Below are positions 47,377 through 55,549 of a stretch of 64,000 bases of DNA, piece by piece (position 1 is the first letter of the stretch; every line of letters begins with the position of its first letter). This DNA comes from Winogradskyella alexanderae (GTDB taxonomy: Bacteria; Bacteroidota; Bacteroidia; Flavobacteriales; Flavobacteriaceae). The notes under the pieces are model-generated. The model had not been told where the DNA came from, did no database searches, and worked only from the letters and a program-made list of their open reading frames with translations. A program made the translations under genes and the position numbers. The stretch lies in the NCBI RefSeq assembly GCF_020166335.1, contig NZ_JAIUJR010000001.1, forward strand, positions 682,001-746,000, given 5' to 3'.

Positions 47377-50300
47377 ATGAAAACTTTGAAGATTCTTTCA
47401 AGTTTTAAAATACTATTTGTTTTATTTCTATTTACTCCGTTCTTTCTTGAGGCGCAAGTTATGCAACTCGAGATTACTGGTGGTGCTGTAGTGACCCAAG
47501 GTTCCACAGTAACTGTGAATTCTGGAAATTTCATTCAGTTTACCATAACAAACGTCGAAACCAATAACTGTAGAAATCTGCGTATAAGAGATGTTGATAT
47601 TTCAAACACTGCAGATTTTGACATTAATCCAAATAACCCAAGACGAAATATAAAACCTGAAACCTGCAATGGTGGTAGGAAATTTTTAAATTTTGATATC
47701 ACCAAGATTTCTGGGAGTTGTAATTTTGCAAGTACACTTGTAACTGTTGAAATTAGAAATCAACCTGATTTTACGTTTACACTAGAGTTTACAGGATCAC
47801 CAGAAATTTATGTACTTGGAGGAGATCCTTTTACGGATATTTTTAATGGAGATGTAACAACAAATGAGACCAATGGAACCTTTTTTGGAGTCGTTGATGA
47901 AGGGAATTCAGTTACTAGGACGTTTATAGTAGCTAATATTGGTAGCTGTCCATTAGATATTAATGCATTAAATAGTTCTAATGGCGATTTTGTTATCTCA
48001 ACACCTTATACGATACCCTTTATAGGATTAGACCCCTTTTTCTTTATATTTTTTGACGTTACTTTTACTGCACCAGTGGGAGGAACCGGTACTCAAACTT
48101 CAACAATTACCATTGATAATTCGGATACAACAACCTTTACATTTAACGTTGAAGCAGAGATGTTCAATGAAAATATTCCAGGTCCTGGAGGTGTTACTGC
48201 AGATTTTAGACTCTGGCTCAAGACCACAAGAGGTATTAATGAAACGGGTTCTAAAGTTTCAATGTGGGAAGATTTAGGGACAAACGCTAAAGATGCTATT
48301 CAACCTAATGGCCCAAACCAACCCACCTTTTTAGATGACCCTGCTTCAAATATTAATTTTAATCCTGTTATTAAATTTGAAAACGACGGAGCAACAGTAG
48401 AGCAGTTTCTTTACAATACGACCAATGGATTTTATAGTCAAGATATTTTCGTTGTAATGATTCCTGATGCGACAATAGATAATACTTCAACAAAAAATAC
48501 AATTTTCGCTGGCACATCAAGTGGAAACGCCAATGATATTACAGGAGTAGGTTTAGGAGACTACTCTACAGAATTTACCAATGAGGTTATTTCTTATAAC
48601 CAGGATGTTGCAGGAGGTGGAAGTTTTAATGGTTATGCAGAGCTTAATACATCATATTCCAATGCTGGTATTATCAATATTAGAAACAACGATCCCACAG
48701 CGCCAACAGGCCAAGAGATACTATACAACTCCAATGTTCTTACCACTGCGAGTGTTGATGATATTGCTTTTGTAAATGTAGGGACTCCTGGTCCACCTGC
48801 AGTACTGGGAACACCTTATTGGATAGGTAAAAACTTTGATCAACAAGGAACGCTAAATGGTAGAGTTGCTGAAATATTCACATTTGCAGAACGCGTGGCA
48901 GATGCTGATAGACAAAAAATCGAATCTTATCTCGGTATTAAATATGGGATTACGCTCGGTCCAAATCAGGAAGCAACCAAAGATTACATTAATTCCTTTG
49001 ATACAAAAATTTGGGATGTAGTGGCCAACTCTGGTTATAACTATCATGTTGCTGGAATAGGTCGAGATTCTATATCAGACTTAAATCAAAAGCAATCCAA
49101 GACCTTAAATCTATTAAATGAAGTTACAATTGGGCTAAATAATCTTTACACAAAGAATAGCGACAATCCTAATGCGTTTAAATACGATGGCGATTTTTTA
49201 GTTTGGGGGAGTAATAATCTTGCTTATACAGGTAGTGCAACCAACACTGTAAGTTTAAAAAATGGTATTACAACCCAGCTTACACGAATTGATAGAAAAT
49301 GGAAAATTGTAGAAAGCAAAGAAAATATTAATGGTGATGTCGGCTTCGTTTATATGTCAATACCAGAGGGCGCTTTAGCTGGATTTGTCAAAGGCGCTGA
49401 TGAGGAATATGCTTTAGTAGTTTCTGTTGATGATACTTTTGCAAATGACAAAATAATAGATGTAATTCCATTAAAACCTGATGGCAGTGGCAACTTAGAA
49501 GTATGGTACGATTTTGACGGAACAAAATATTTTTCATTTGCAAGAGCGCAGCAAACGGCTGGTGATTATGCAATGAATATTACCGCAGGAAATTATTTGG
49601 TGGGTGAATCCAATCTCAATTTAAATAGTGATAATTTCACAATTTCTGCGTGGGTAAGAAGTAATCCTACAAATCAAATCCGAACTGTAATGTCTAAAGG
49701 AGATAAGCTACAGTTTAGACTTAATACCCAAAATCAGGTAGAAGTATTAATTGATGATGCTACAACGCCTAAGTTTACATCTACAATTCAAATTAATGAT
49801 AACCATTGGCATCACCTGACCTTTGTCTATAGAAGTGGAACCATCTTTCTTTATATTGATGGGATTTTGGACAAAACGGAGTTGGATGTTGTTGCGCCTT
49901 CACCAAATTTCAACAGATTTGCTGTTGGTGCCTTATTTATTGATAAATCAAATATTATAAACCCACTTCTGGGAGAGGTAGATGAGATCTACGTTTGGGA
50001 TACACCATTAAACCAAGATCAGGTCAGATATTTAATGAATCAAGAAATTGAACGATTAGATATTGCTGGTGTAGACTATGTATCAGGAAAAGCATTGCCT
50101 GGAAATTCAATAAGTAATCCAGTAATTGATATTAACTGGAGTAGTTTAAGAGCATATTACAATTTTAATTCAATCTATGGGTCTACAGTAGAAGGACAGA
50201 CTGATGCGAGGAATTTTCTTAGGATAAACTATCTGTCAAATAACAAAGAAGTTGTTGAATCCCAGACAGCGCCATTACCCTATGTAACAGCTGCAAATGG

Positions 50301-52278
50301 AGTTTGGGATAATCCTACAACATGGCAAAATGCAACTGTTCAGCCAATACCTAACTCTTTAGGTTTGGATGGTGTTACAATGATCGATTGGAATATCGTA
50401 GAAATTAATCACGATATCACTTCAGGTGATAGAGATTTAAAACTACTTGCCTTAACCAATACTACAAAACTTACAGTAGCAAATCCGAATGAAAATCTTG
50501 ATGAAAACAATTCAGGTCAGGCACTGATAGTAACAAATTACCTTGAAATAGATGGAATAATTGACTTAGTTGGTCAATCTCAATTAATACAAACGGAGGG
50601 TAGTATACTAGATGCTGATAGTGGCGGATTTATAGAACGCGATCAGCAAGGCGTAGCAAATAGTTTTAATTATAATTATTGGTCTTCTTCCGTCGGACCT
50701 ATTGTTGGAAATAGTGCTACTAGAGGAACAGGTATAGCTCTTGGTGCTCAGAACGCACAACTAGAAGATGTATTATTTGATGGAACAAATTCAGCAATCT
50801 ATCAAAATATAAACTTTGATCCATCTGCTTTTGCGGCTGACGGAGGTGCGTCAAGCCCGATAACAATTAGTTCATATTGGTTATATAAATTTTATGGTCC
50901 TACTGATGATTATGGGTCTTGGAATTCCATTAATGAAACAACTAGTTTATTGCCTGGAGAAGGTTTTACTATGAAAGGTTCTTCTGGACCGGCTGATCTT
51001 TTTACGGAAGTTCAGAACTATGTGTTTAAAGGACTTCCTAATAACGGCGAAATTTTGATTCCGCTTGATAAAAATATTACTGCACAAAACCCAACAGGAA
51101 ATGTTGATAGATTAATCGGAAACCCATATCCATCCGCAATAGATGCGACTCAATTCATTTTAGATAATATGAGTATAGCGGATGGTGGAAACAATGAAAA
51201 TGGAACCATATTCAATGGTGCAATCTATTTTTGGGATCACTTTGGAGAAGAGAATTCGCATCAGCTTGGAGATTATGTGGGTGGCTACGCCACGAGAAAT
51301 TTGCTAGGTGGTGTTGCAGCTATTTCAAATGAGCCTCAAATTAATAATACCTCAGATGGCGGTAATCCTGCTACAGGGACAAAAATCCCTGGACCTTACA
51401 TACCAGTAAATCAAGGTTTTTTTGTTTCCACAGCTATAGATGGATTTGAGAATGATAACGGTACACCATTGGTAACAGTAGATGGTGGTAATGTGGTTTT
51501 TAACAACGGACAAAGACTATTTGAGCGAGAGTTTGTTGGTAATTCAACATTCATGAAATCCAATTTAACCACCACAAGCTCTCAAAATGAAATTGAAGAC
51601 ACGCCAATGATAAGACTATTGTTTAAATCTCCAACTGGTTTTAAAAGAGAAATAGCTATAGGTCTTAATCCTAACGCGTCAGATGGATTTGATTTGGGTT
51701 ATGATGCATTTTTAGCCGATTTAAACATGGAAGACATGTATTGGGTCCTTGACAATAATAAATTTGTTATCCAAGGCGTAAATAATTTCAATTTAAATCA
51801 GGAATTTCCTTTGGGTGTAAAATTGGGAGCATCAGGTATTTTTTCAATTAAATTAAAAAGTATCGAAAATTTAGATCCAGAGTTAGACATTTATCTAAAG
51901 GACAAATTGACCAATTCATATTATCTACTTAATAGTTCGATTTTTCAGCTATTTATGGATAGTGGTGATTATGAAGATCGATTTGCTATAACGTTTAATC
52001 AGCAAGAAAGCCTTTCGGTTAATTCGGCTGATTTGGATGAATCTATTCTTAACGTCTTCTATAAAGATCAAAATGAAAGTGTCTTTATATCAAATCCAAA
52101 TAATATGCTTATTGTTGAAGCAACAATTTATAATATTATGGGACAAGAAGTATTGCGAAAGGTTTTTAATAATACTGATACTTTGAGTAGAATTCCGTTA
52201 AAAGTGTCTAGTGGTACTTATATAGTTAAACTTTATACCGATCAAGGCACGATATCTAAAAAGTTAATTATTAACTAG
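47377..52278 (+). CDS. Very large type IX-secreted LamG-domain protein
   Basis: 1633 residues. Signal peptide (FFLEAQ, about residue 27). A choice-of-anchor-D-like Ig region (about 140-265) is followed by a domain beginning FRLWLKTTRGI (about 275-530), a type common in flavobacterial surface proteins. A LamG/concanavalin jelly-roll (about 728-888) has FTISAWVRS, HWHHLTFVYRSGTIFLYIDG and GEVDEIYVWD. A long beta-rich region follows, and the C-terminal ~80 residues form a type A sorting domain (TYIVKLYTDQGTISKKLIIN). Surface or extracellular; adhesive or glycan-binding role inferred. Confidence 0.85.
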   Translation: MKTLKILSSFKILFVLFLFTPFFLEAQVMQLEITGGAVVTQGSTVTVNSGNFIQFTITNVETNNCRNLRIRDVDISNTADFDINPNNPRRNIKPETCNGGRKFLNFDITKISGSCNFASTLVTVEIRNQPDFTFTLEFTGSPEIYVLGGDPFTDIFNGDVTTNETNGTFFGVVDEGNSVTRTFIVANIGSCPLDINALNSSNGDFVISTPYTIPFIGLDPFFFIFFDVTFTAPVGGTGTQTSTITIDNSDTTTFTFNVEAEMFNENIPGPGGVTADFRLWLKTTRGINETGSKVSMWEDLGTNAKDAIQPNGPNQPTFLDDPASNINFNPVIKFENDGATVEQFLYNTTNGFYSQDIFVVMIPDATIDNTSTKNTIFAGTSSGNANDITGVGLGDYSTEFTNEVISYNQDVAGGGSFNGYAELNTSYSNAGIINIRNNDPTAPTGQEILYNSNVLTTASVDDIAFVNVGTPGPPAVLGTPYWIGKNFDQQGTLNGRVAEIFTFAERVADADRQKIESYLGIKYGITLGPNQEATKDYINSFDTKIWDVVANSGYNYHVAGIGRDSISDLNQKQSKTLNLLNEVTIGLNNLYTKNSDNPNAFKYDGDFLVWGSNNLAYTGSATNTVSLKNGITTQLTRIDRKWKIVESKENINGDVGFVYMSIPEGALAGFVKGADEEYALVVSVDDTFANDKIIDVIPLKPDGSGNLEVWYDFDGTKYFSFARAQQTAGDYAMNITAGNYLVGESNLNLNSDNFTISAWVRSNPTNQIRTVMSKGDKLQFRLNTQNQVEVLIDDATTPKFTSTIQINDNHWHHLTFVYRSGTIFLYIDGILDKTELDVVAPSPNFNRFAVGALFIDKSNIINPLLGEVDEIYVWDTPLNQDQVRYLMNQEIERLDIAGVDYVSGKALPGNSISNPVIDINWSSLRAYYNFNSIYGSTVEGQTDARNFLRINYLSNNKEVVESQTAPLPYVTAANGVWDNPTTWQNATVQPIPNSLGLDGVTMIDWNIVEINHDITSGDRDLKLLALTNTTKLTVANPNENLDENNSGQALIVTNYLEIDGIIDLVGQSQLIQTEGSILDADSGGFIERDQQGVANSFNYNYWSSSVGPIVGNSATRGTGIALGAQNAQLEDVLFDGTNSAIYQNINFDPSAFAADGGASSPITISSYWLYKFYGPTDDYGSWNSINETTSLLPGEGFTMKGSSGPADLFTEVQNYVFKGLPNNGEILIPLDKNITAQNPTGNVDRLIGNPYPSAIDATQFILDNMSIADGGNNENGTIFNGAIYFWDHFGEENSHQLGDYVGGYATRNLLGGVAAISNEPQINNTSDGGNPATGTKIPGPYIPVNQGFFVSTAIDGFENDNGTPLVTVDGGNVVFNNGQRLFEREFVGNSTFMKSNLTTTSSQNEIEDTPMIRLLFKSPTGFKREIAIGLNPNASDGFDLGYDAFLADLNMEDMYWVLDNNKFVIQGVNNFNLNQEFPLGVKLGASGIFSIKLKSIENLDPELDIYLKDKLTNSYYLLNSSIFQLFMDSGDYEDRFAITFNQQESLSVNSADLDESILNVFYKDQNESVFISNPNNMLIVEATIYNIMGQEVLRKVFNNTDTLSRIPLKVSSGTYIVKLYTDQGTISKKLIIN

Positions 52279-52365: not shown

Positions 52366-52553
52366 ATGCTCTTGAAAGCCCTAATTATCTCTTTCCAAGA
52401 AAATCCATTTTACTTTAAGACAAAACGTCCCTCGTTTTATTTAGTACAGTTTAGGTTTAATACCTGTAATAGTTAATTATCCATTCCCCTCCCTCATTAC
52501 GGCGAAAACCGTTGTAATTATTATTAACTAATTGAAACCCTAAATTGACGAAT

Positions 52554-52721
52554 ATGAAAACTCTAAAAATTACTTTAACTTTAGTAGCAATCGCTTTATT
52601 AACAGTTTCTGGTATACAATCTGAAGACATTGTAACAGAGAATAGCGATACGAACCAACCTGAAAAGATTGATTTACTGGCTAGCGGTAAAAAAGGAGGA
52701 CAATTACCTACACAAGGGTAA
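52554..52721 (+). CDS. 55-residue secreted small protein, candidate signal peptide
   Basis: Not similar to any family I know. Starts MKTLKITLTLVAIALLTVSG, a clear signal sequence or membrane anchor. A short acidic/polar middle follows, and the tail is basic and Gly-rich: LASGKKGGQLPTQG. It has its own consensus promoter and a terminator 22 nt after its stop. It lies 132 nt upstream of a membrane TPR histidine kinase on the same strand. The context and precursor-like layout suggest an exported signalling peptide; this is inference. Confidence 0.7.
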   Translation: MKTLKITLTLVAIALLTVSGIQSEDIVTENSDTNQPEKIDLLASGKKGGQLPTQG

Positions 52722-52743
52722 ACTCACTTTATAATATATAAAT

Positions 52744-52785
52744 GCCTATAACTCTTTGAGCTATGGGCTTTTTGTGCTTTTTTAT
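52744..52785 (+). terminator. Intrinsic terminator of the small-peptide gene
   Basis: GCCTATA / TATGGGC stem (one G-T pair) enclosing an inner CTC-TTT-GAG stem, followed by TTTTTGTGCTTTTTT. It separates the peptide gene from the kinase gene. Confidence 0.8.
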
Positions 52786-52823
52786 ATCACATTCAATTTT
52801 TATCTACGTTACCTAAAAAATTA

Positions 52824-52831
52824 TAACTTTG
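52824..52831 (+). promoter_or_regulatory. Probable -7 box of the TPR kinase operon
   Basis: TAACTTTG, full match to TAnnTTTG, 22 nt before the TTG start at 52854. No -33 TTG at the right distance. Confidence 0.5.
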
Positions 52832-52853
52832 AGAGTAAATAAAATATTTACTG

Positions 52854-54884
52854 TTGAAGCTTAAACTGCTATTTATATTTTCAATTTTTGCGATACCTTT
52901 TTTAACGCAATCTCAAGAAAATAACTCACTTCTAGACTCTGTATATATATTAAGGGATTTATCTGTGGATAACACTTTATCCAAAGATATGCGTATTGAA
53001 TATGGTAAACAGGCGGTAGAATTATCAAAACGTACAAAATCTGATTCTACAACCTTAATTAGTGAACGTAAACTGGCGTTTGTTTATTTGCTTACAGGCG
53101 AATATGAGCTTTATGAAAGCAACTCCCTAAACAATCTAGAGACAGCCAAGAAACTGAATGATTCTTTGGGTATTGCCTATATAAATGCTGGATTAGGATA
53201 TTTAAATACTTATATAAATCTTAATAACGAACTGGGCTTTAAATATTATTTGGATGCTTTAAAATATTTCGATGCTCTAAATAAATTTAGTGATAAGGCC
53301 AATGCCCTATATAATATTGCCTACATTCAAGATGACGAGAAAGATTATCTGGGGAGTGAACAGAATGCTATATCAGCCTTGAGAATATTAGATGGTTTGG
53401 ATCTTAAAGGCAATGATTTATTGAAGTATAGAATTTTGAATCTGTTGGGATTGGTGTCATATAAGCTTGAAAATTTTGAAGAAGCCATTGCATTCCATAA
53501 TCAAGCCGTAAAGGTTGCTGAAAACTTGGATAATGGCAAGCAACTAGCCATAGAATCTTTGAATAATATTGCCATAACCTATCGTGAAAAACGAGAGTTT
53601 GATAAGGCTCTTGAACTGTTTTCAGAGATTTTTCAAAATCCCCAAATTAAGGAAGATATGTCCTTTTATGGACTGGTCTTAGCTAATTATGCTTTCACTA
53701 AATTTTTAAGCAGTAATTATGACTATTATGATGTAGAAAAAGACCTTATAAAATCACTAAGTATAAGTGAGGAAATTGAGGATGATTATGTAAAATTGGT
53801 AGCTTCTTTAGACCTGGCAAAATTTTATGAAGCTAACAAAATTGCAGATTCTTCAATGAAGTATGCTCGTCAGACCTATAAAATAGCAAAGGCTATACCA
53901 AGAAATGACTATTATTTAGAGGCCATGATTATTTTGGCCCGACTCACAGATGGTGAAGAAAGCAATTCGTATTTAGAGCAACACATTAATCTAAGTGATA
54001 GTTTGCTCGGTGTAGAGCGAGCAACACGTAATAAGTTTGCTCGAATAGAATATAAAACTGATGAGCTTGAAGCAGAGAATGAACAGATCTCAAAGGAAAA
54101 CCTTTATCTATTGATTTTGTCCATAGGACTTTTATTAACAGCAATAATTGTCTATTTGGTAATATCCCAACGTGCAAAGAATAGAAAACTTAAACTCATA
54201 CAAGTGCAGTCCAAGGCAAATGAGGATATTTATAATCTTATCCGTGAACAACAAGATAGGGTTGATGAGGCAAGGACTACAGAAAAAAAACGTATTTCTG
54301 AGGAATTACATGACGGTATACTTGGGCGCTTATTTGGTACACGACTTAGTTTAGATAGTATTAATTTTAAGGATGGTAAAGATGCTATGACTACAAGAGC
54401 GGCATATATAAGCCAACTCAAAACCATAGAAGAAGACATAAGGAAAATTTCCCATGAATTGAATACCGATTTTGTCGCTGGTGCTGGGTTCGCGGATATT
54501 GTTTCAGAATTAATTGCCAATCAAACCAATGCCTATAATTTGGAATATGAATTTGACCATGATGATGAAATTGATTGGGAAATGGTGAATAACAGAGTTA
54601 AAATAAACATTTACAGGATTATACAAGAGGCCATGCAAAATGTTTATAAACACGCCAATGCAAAGGCAATAAAAATTAGTATTTCCCTTCAAAAAAATGT
54701 AATTTGCTTAGATATCATTGATGATGGTGACGGATTTGATACATCAAAAGGCAAAAAAGGCATTGGGTTAAAAAACATGACTTCTCGTGTAACTGCTATT
54801 GATGGTAAAATTGAGTGGTCATCACAAGTTGGAAATGGTACAGTTGTTAATGTTAGGATTCCCTATTTAAACCAATCGACATGA
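52854..54884 (+). CDS. TPR-containing membrane histidine kinase (HisKA_3/NarX-DegS type)
   Basis: 676 residues from a TTG start, supported because it begins a signal peptide (ending LTQSQ). The exported region (about 20-390) consists of tetratricopeptide-like helical repeats (ALYNIAYIQ, NLLGLVSYKLENFEEAIAFHNQAV, NNIAITYREKREFDKALELF). A coiled-coil and one transmembrane helix lie at about 417-437. The HisKA_3 dimerisation/phosphorylation box has His486 in KKRISEELHDG, and the HATPase shows DIIDDGDGFD and KGIGLKNM. The kinase is cytoplasmic; the periplasmic TPR part probably binds a peptide or protein ligand. Confidence 0.92.
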   Translation: MKLKLLFIFSIFAIPFLTQSQENNSLLDSVYILRDLSVDNTLSKDMRIEYGKQAVELSKRTKSDSTTLISERKLAFVYLLTGEYELYESNSLNNLETAKKLNDSLGIAYINAGLGYLNTYINLNNELGFKYYLDALKYFDALNKFSDKANALYNIAYIQDDEKDYLGSEQNAISALRILDGLDLKGNDLLKYRILNLLGLVSYKLENFEEAIAFHNQAVKVAENLDNGKQLAIESLNNIAITYREKREFDKALELFSEIFQNPQIKEDMSFYGLVLANYAFTKFLSSNYDYYDVEKDLIKSLSISEEIEDDYVKLVASLDLAKFYEANKIADSSMKYARQTYKIAKAIPRNDYYLEAMIILARLTDGEESNSYLEQHINLSDSLLGVERATRNKFARIEYKTDELEAENEQISKENLYLLILSIGLLLTAIIVYLVISQRAKNRKLKLIQVQSKANEDIYNLIREQQDRVDEARTTEKKRISEELHDGILGRLFGTRLSLDSINFKDGKDAMTTRAAYISQLKTIEEDIRKISHELNTDFVAGAGFADIVSELIANQTNAYNLEYEFDHDDEIDWEMVNNRVKINIYRIIQEAMQNVYKHANAKAIKISISLQKNVICLDIIDDGDGFDTSKGKKGIGLKNMTSRVTAIDGKIEWSSQVGNGTVVNVRIPYLNQST

Positions 54885-55549
54885 AGCATATTAACATACT
54901 TATGGTAGATGATCACCCTATAATAATAGAGGGCTACCAAAATGTGTTAATGGCAACCAAGGAAGACGATCAGACTTTACTTATTGATACGGCTAATAAT
55001 TGCGATACAGCCCAATTAATGATTAATAGGGCTGCCAAAAATACGCCTTACGATGTCTGCTTTTTTGATATAAGTTTACCTGGTTCTGAAGATGGAAAAT
55101 ATACATCAGGTGAAGATCTAGCGCTTCTTGCCAAAAAGGTTATGCCAGACTCAAAAATCATTATTCTTACAATGTTTAATGAATCTTTTCGAATTCATAA
55201 TATTATAAAAGAGATTAATCCTGACGGTTTTTTAATAAAGAGCGATTTGACTTCTATGGAGCTTGCGGATGCCTTCCAACAGATCTTGCGGTTTCCGCCA
55301 TATTATAGCAGTACAGTTAGTAATTACATAAAAAAGACTATTTCGAGCGAAATTTATGTAGACGATATCAACAGGAAAATACTTCATTTGCTCTCACAAG
55401 GTATAAAAACCAAAAGCCTTAGCGAGTATATTCCCCTTTCTACAAGTGCCATCGAAAAACGAAAGAAACAGCTTAAGTTACTGTTCTCTGTCAGAGACGG
55501 AAAAGATGAATCTTTGCTTCAAGAGGCACGAGAAAAAGGCTATTTGTAG
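54881..55549 (+). CDS. LuxR/NarL-type response regulator
   Basis: 222 residues. Receiver with acidic pair in MVDDHP, phospho-acceptor Asp63 in CFFDISLPG, Thr in ILTMFNE and Lys in LIKSD. The C-terminal helix-turn-helix (DINRKILHLLSQGIKTKSL, STSAIEKRKKQLK) is a divergent LuxR-type DNA-binding domain. The start overlaps the kinase stop by 4 bp (ATGA), so the two are translationally coupled partners. Confidence 0.92.
   Translation: MKHINILMVDDHPIIIEGYQNVLMATKEDDQTLLIDTANNCDTAQLMINRAAKNTPYDVCFFDISLPGSEDGKYTSGEDLALLAKKVMPDSKIIILTMFNESFRIHNIIKEINPDGFLIKSDLTSMELADAFQQILRFPPYYSSTVSNYIKKTISSEIYVDDINRKILHLLSQGIKTKSLSEYIPLSTSAIEKRKKQLKLLFSVRDGKDESLLQEAREKGYL

Follow-up and report, generated by a model that had tools for sequence, protein, structure and literature searches.

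A probable polymorphic peptide-pheromone two-component system with an exported TPR sensor kinase in Flavobacteriaceae

A small exported peptide, a histidine kinase with a periplasmic tetratricopeptide repeat (TPR) sensor and an RcsB/LuxR-type regulator are encoded, in that order on the + strand, in the window analysed here (the whole stretch of 64,000 nucleotides of Winogradskyella alexanderae DNA). Judged from comparison of related loci, the three probably constitute a polymorphic peptide-pheromone two-component system. The preliminary description had proposed the kinase as the receptor of a peptide signal; the family-wide pairing of the genes and the co-variation of the peptide tail with the TPR domain lend comparative support to that proposal.

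The triplet, its leader and its distribution

The peptide precursor gene (52554–52721, +; ATG at 52554, stop at 52719–52721) specifies 55 aa, MKTLKITLTLVAIALLTVSGIQS / EDIVTENSDTNQPEKIDLLASGKKGGQLPTQG. Its product has a Sec-type signal peptide, MKTLKITLTLVAIALLTVSGIQS, as judged from N-terminal charge and hydrophobicity, then an acidic middle, and then a basic tail ending LASGKKGGQLPTQG, the architecture with which it had been described at the outset. The signal-peptide codons, 1–23 (52554–52622), are conserved and track species phylogeny (r 0.75 vs the cytoplasmic kinase part), and it is the mature part (52623–52718) that co-varies with the TPR domain. A homologue was found in 60 of the 60 Winogradskyella genomes searched, mostly with E < 1e-7. 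Neither the peptide nor representatives of other precursor types match a Pfam or NCBIfam model. A chance ORF is ruled out by these homologues together with the exported mini-genes at 75 of 78 loci picked by their regulator (below).

The sensor kinase (52854–54884, +; 676 aa) initiates at a TTG 132 bp downstream of the peptide gene, a spacing that is typically 100–150 bp in 67 loci. [In 44 of 67 kinase orthologues no ATG stands where the start is expected, and TTG was assigned there too; perhaps it is a means of deliberately low receptor expression.] Pfam matches are to TPRs (residues 193–258) and HATPase_c (584–671); a HisKA_3-like region at 477–533 scores 22.1 bits, just below the cut-off of 24, and UhpB/LiaS/NarX-type models match strongly. 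The exported TPR part that the preliminary description placed directly downstream of the small gene is borne out by these matches and by the topology: a signal sequence, a periplasmic TPR superhelix (residues ~21–400), a single transmembrane segment (~416–437) and then the kinase core. An AlphaFold model of residues 20–440 is a confident TPR superhelix (mean pLDDT 92.3). Among solved structures it comes nearest to the TPR domains of LGN/Pins, mostly peptide complexes (Z ~29), and it also resembles RapI, NprR, RapF and phage Rap (Z 22–26), which are peptide sensors. Such fold similarity fits peptide binding by the predicted domain and alone is no proof of it. A search for a second system elsewhere in the source genome yielded a kinase-core match at 30% and nothing else.

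The coupled LuxR-type regulator that had been seen after the kinase (54881–55549, +; 222 aa, NarL/LuxR class) overlaps it by 4 bp. It aligns with RcsB over residues 1–204, its receiver domain is detected and NarL/RcsB/UvrY-type models match full-length; the Pfam GerE model does not match. In most of the genera retrieved by the peptide query it is 72–95% identical (57% in Olleya) and, at E ≤ 1e-35, its subfamily was found in Flavobacteriaceae only. Paralogues of the regulator in L225, L226 and L227 (in the first ~670 or last ~670 bases) have no adjacent TPR kinase and are possibly orphan regulators of the same subfamily.

Genes for thioredoxin-like, DUF58-like (by inspection) and DUF456 proteins flank the triplet and are kept in 43–53 of 61 loci. 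Directly upstream of the system, at 47377–52278, is a gene for a 1633-aa LamG-type protein with a T9SS sorting domain; of 61 loci from relatives just one has it at this place, so it is a strain-specific insertion beside the system.

Conservation is strong over approximately 120 bp 5′ of the peptide gene (52427–52550, +; alignment of 28–68 loci), and TTG(A)...TAAATTGATA stands immediately before the ATG. The order of elements in this leader is TCCCTC, a hairpin, AGTTAATwATCCATTCCCTTCCCTC, a second hairpin (52496–52518), TTG...TAAATTGA and the ATG. Six of the seven pairs of the second hairpin have changes on both sides that preserve pairing. The leader may act in cis as an RNA or be the site of a regulator, though an Rfam search gave no credible match for it. 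The leader motif is unique in the genome, and as a regulon operator it was discarded: with 2 mismatches allowed, its genome-wide matches equalled in number those of a reversed-pattern control, so no regulon was inferred, and the scan with this motif found no operator common to the peptide gene and other genes. Of the promoter and terminator earlier attributed to the small gene, the latter is present as a hairpin and T-run in the peptide–kinase gap (52744–52785, +; −11.3 kcal/mol), and terminator-type hairpins occur in that gap in 47 of 68 loci vs 6.1 in shuffles. The consensus promoter fared less well: the upstream region is conserved and contains the TTG element, but a sigma-70 scan, whose model excludes Bacteroidota promoters, found nothing above chance.

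Conservation of the small gene beside such kinases, on which the earlier proposal depended, is family-wide. Each of the 30 peptide-bearing loci fetched from the Winogradskyella search has the kinase immediately downstream. Scanning named genomes yielded 69 loci, in Winogradskyella, Psychroserpens, Gelidibacter, Olleya, Meridianimaribacter, Aquaticitalea and others, and wherever the locus was long enough the peptide gene comes first, then the kinase and then the regulator. These loci (L060–L128) were found by signal-peptide patterns, which inflates the apparent conservation of the signal peptide and does not inflate the co-variation considered below. To avoid the circularity of a peptide-based search, 80 further loci in other Flavobacteriaceae genera (L129–L208) were chosen by the regulator alone. 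With a mini-gene defined as 35–110 aa with a signal-like N-terminus, on the same strand and within 500 bp upstream of the kinase, an exported one (signal peptide or lipoprotein) was present at 75 of the 78 with upstream sequence, vs 4 of 78 on the antisense strand and 35 of 285 (12%) before other genes. When the size limit was raised to 160 aa and 17 Flavobacterium-like and paralogous kinase loci were added, the count was 95 of 95, under a looser rule that has no control of its own. Many precursors outside the Winogradskyella type are lipoproteins with an LTSC box, for instance MKALKITLILAVLFASLTS-CTKQDLNEDD...TGGGVDQ. No convincing exported mini-gene was found upstream at 20 TPR-kinase loci from Bacteroidia families other than Flavobacteriaceae, and viral contigs and PLSDB plasmids gave no relatives.

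Co-variation and exchange of peptide and TPR domain

Distance matrices for five parts of the system were compared across 67 loci, with partial Mantel tests conditioned on kinase core and regulator. Kinase core and regulator evolve in concert (r 0.86) and the signal sequence follows both (0.75 and 0.70), whereas the TPR domain departs from core and regulator (0.23 and 0.18). It is the TPR domain that the mature peptide follows: partial r with this domain is 0.45 for the middle and 0.33 for the tail, with 0 of 2000 permutations reaching either value, the permutations being simple ones that do not fully model the tree. The signal sequence serves as an internal control within the same 55-aa gene, and its partial r with the TPR domain is 0.04 (P 0.21); that of the tail with the core is −0.07. 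Forty independent lipoprotein-type loci show the pattern more strongly still, at 0.66 for tail and TPR domain (0 of 2000 permutations) and −0.14 for tail and core, while their signal and Cys-proximal linker track the kinase core. The co-variation of tail and TPR sequence to which the preliminary description had pointed is thus found in both sets. Given the conditioning on core and regulator, the signal-sequence control and the second set of loci, a phylogenetic artefact is unlikely to be behind it, and the co-variation argues strongly that the TPR domain binds the peptide of the neighbouring gene.

As judged from identity profiles, pairwise comparisons and tree conflict, mature peptide and TPR domain have been swapped between lineages as one unit, with the signal peptide, kinase core and regulator retained. 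The kinase cores of L098 and L065 are 97% identical and their regulators 98%, vs 33% for the TPR domains and 21% for the mature peptides. Conversely, L095 and L093 belong to different genera by their cores (64%), yet their TPR domains are 74% identical and their peptides match. At the DNA level, identity in close pairs is ~75–88% in the leader, 86–96% in the signal codons, 45–55% in the mature peptide, ~42% in the gap and ~50% in the TPR codons, and then 76%, rising to 87–96% from kinase codon 401. The borders are sharp, with identity falling at the signal cleavage site and returning at the transmembrane segment, and they delimit an exchange cassette of mature peptide, gap and TPR sensor at 52623–54051 (+). 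In the core-plus-regulator tree Winogradskyella is a single clade with a support of 100; in the TPR tree 8 changes are needed for the genus. AU tests reject Winogradskyella monophyly for the TPR data (p 1.3e-7) and, for the core-plus-regulator data, the TPR clade of L081, L093, L095 and L115, which was selected after inspection of the TPR distances (p 2.9e-6). Since the neighbours of the locus are conserved (43–53 of 61 loci), the exchange is a replacement in place.

At L127 (8001–8213) a second precursor copy, of 71 aa, is 5′ of the normal one and has two divergent tails within one chain (LLAVDKKKKLKLHTHG and LAMDKKKLKLETHG). Possibly it is a pherotype in transition.

The ligand, the proposed signal and its rivals

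Tandem precursor genes are present at 12 loci, with a maximum of 12 copies (L162). Between array copies, amino-acid differences per codon fall from 0.121 in the signal through 0.067 in the middle to 0.037 in the last 14 residues; the synonymous rates in the same arrays are alike (0.096, 0.117 and 0.109 for signal, middle and tail). In other loci the tail is repeated within one precursor, 6 times in L222, 5 times in L193 and L224, 4 times in L195 and L212 and 2–3 times in L140, L162 and L213. [Intragenic duplication is frequent in Gram-positive RRNPP quorum-sensing propeptides (PMC10075063).] Together, tail conservation in the arrays and the internal repeats place the putative active unit in the C-terminal ~10–14 residues; in the window the proposed ligand is LASGKKGGQLPTQG, the last ~14 residues (52677–52718, +). 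Across precursors, tails range from basic to highly acidic. The precursor at L222 (1929–2300) has six copies of a Cys-containing unit, CDDCAHDSDDRET, whose CxxC pair could give a disulfide-closed ligand.

The observations would fit a mechanism in which physical binding, processing, release to neighbouring cells, the sign of the response and the regulon are the inferred parts. The precursor would be transcribed separately from the kinase, with its transcript ended by its own terminator, and would leave the cytoplasm by Sec; in other genera it would often do so as a lipoprotein. The ligand would be the last ~10–14 residues of the precursor, probably freed by proteolysis, and in the periplasm it would dock in the TPR superhelix of the kinase encoded next to it. 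Binding would shift the kinase/phosphatase balance of the sensor and the RcsB/LuxR-type regulator would then alter transcription. Peptide and sensor would be a matched polymorphic pair, or pherotype, replaced as a cassette on a constant kinase core. Release to other cells is suggested by the pherotype-like exchange and by the copy-number behaviour.

The main rival is that the peptide is a private periplasmic co-factor, which binds the TPR domain without any cell-to-cell signal and acts as a feedback subunit or as a reporter of secretion or envelope status, the pairs diverging through compensatory change. Sensor and peptide occupy the same periplasm, so self-sensing would yield equal coupling; lipoprotein precursors could remain tethered, and the locus itself encodes neither an outer-membrane exporter nor a processing protease. 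Where compensatory drift fails is with the wholesale replacement of cassettes, the same TPR and peptide types in different genera, the arrays of up to 12 precursor genes and the internal tail repeats. A signal that depends on dose and is under diversifying selection would be expected to show all of these features. A private co-factor is fairly unlikely.

Small, exported, variable and multi-copy products would also be expected of a bacteriocin-like or toxin precursor, with its expression under control of the kinase and its product recognised by the sensor, and peptide-sensing kinases are common with regulated bacteriocins. This is very improbable given that the conserved neighbourhood has no immunity, modification or export gene, that the gene is a single-site core gene in 60 of 60 genomes and that tails from basic to highly acidic are unlike one killing mechanism. 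Least probable, and already contradicted, is that the ORF is a leader peptide or RNA artefact regulating kinase transcription by attenuation, its sequence being no ligand. The conserved structured leader and the terminator ahead of the kinase are what it has in its favour. However, the tails show synonymous change with amino-acid conservation, the gene occurs in arrays, and it is the tail and not the signal peptide that is coupled to the TPR domain, all of which requires selection on the exported peptide.

Extending the pheromone reading, a Flavobacteriaceae-wide pheromone language, with precursors exported by Sec or as lipoproteins and at times holding 2–6 signal copies per chain, periplasmic TPR receptor kinases, and pherotypes that cassette exchange spreads across genera, is reasonably likely. 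If this is a peptide-signal system, a large group of marine and soil polymer degraders would possess a chemical language specific to the species or strain, and hundreds of natural ligand–receptor pairs, with specificity located to ~14 residues and one TPR domain, would be available for testing.

Comparison with known systems

Among the open PMC papers searched (preprints excluded) no description of this peptide–TPR–kinase system was found, nor, in the open papers searched, of any peptide-signal system for Bacteroidota. Within the phylum, FimS of the Porphyromonas gingivalis FimS–FimR pair is likewise a kinase with a periplasmic TPR sensor; to our knowledge it has no described peptide gene. Homology to the FimS model NF053520 is weak and in the TPR/TM part (E 1e-16; 60 bits vs a cut-off of 600). 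The FimS signal is not known, and a polypeptide ligand has been suggested (PMC11053733). For TPR sensor kinases of other Bacteroidota whose ligands are not known, FimS among them, the present system offers a starting point.

In the Staphylococcus agr system (AgrD–AgrC–AgrA) peptide and sensor half co-vary over a constant core and regulator, giving specificity groups, and the triplet here has the same co-variation and exchange. A cyclic thiolactone peptide made by AgrB, a polytopic sensor and a LytTR regulator are features of agr that set it apart. In ComQXP (ComX–ComP–ComA of Bacillus subtilis) a variable precursor end and a variable sensor half form a pherotype cassette while the kinase core is constant. 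There also the precursor is beside a HisKA_3/HPK7-class kinase and a LuxR-type regulator, the same gene classes as here. However, ComP senses with a multi-spanning membrane domain, whereas a soluble TPR superhelix before one transmembrane segment is predicted here, and ComX is isoprenylated by ComQ, whereas nothing ComQ-like is at the present locus or among its conserved neighbours, in a Gram-negative phylum.

RRNPP systems (Rap–Phr, NprR–NprX, PlcR–PapR) have a small propeptide, for which 10–100 aa is the criterion (PMC10075063). This Sec-exported propeptide adjoins a TPR receptor, as here with 55 aa and a separation of 132 bp, and the signal is its C-terminal residues; the TPR fold predicted here is similar to that of Rap and NprR. 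RRNPP receptors, however, are intracellular proteins of 250–500 aa that bind peptide taken back into the cell and function as regulators or phosphatases, whereas here a protein of 676 aa with a signal sequence, a transmembrane segment and a histidine kinase core has its TPR domain exported and fused to the kinase. If the pheromone language is real, Bacteroidota would possess a separate class of peptide quorum sensing, in which a receptor resembling those of RRNPP systems is exported and joined to a kinase resembling ComP.
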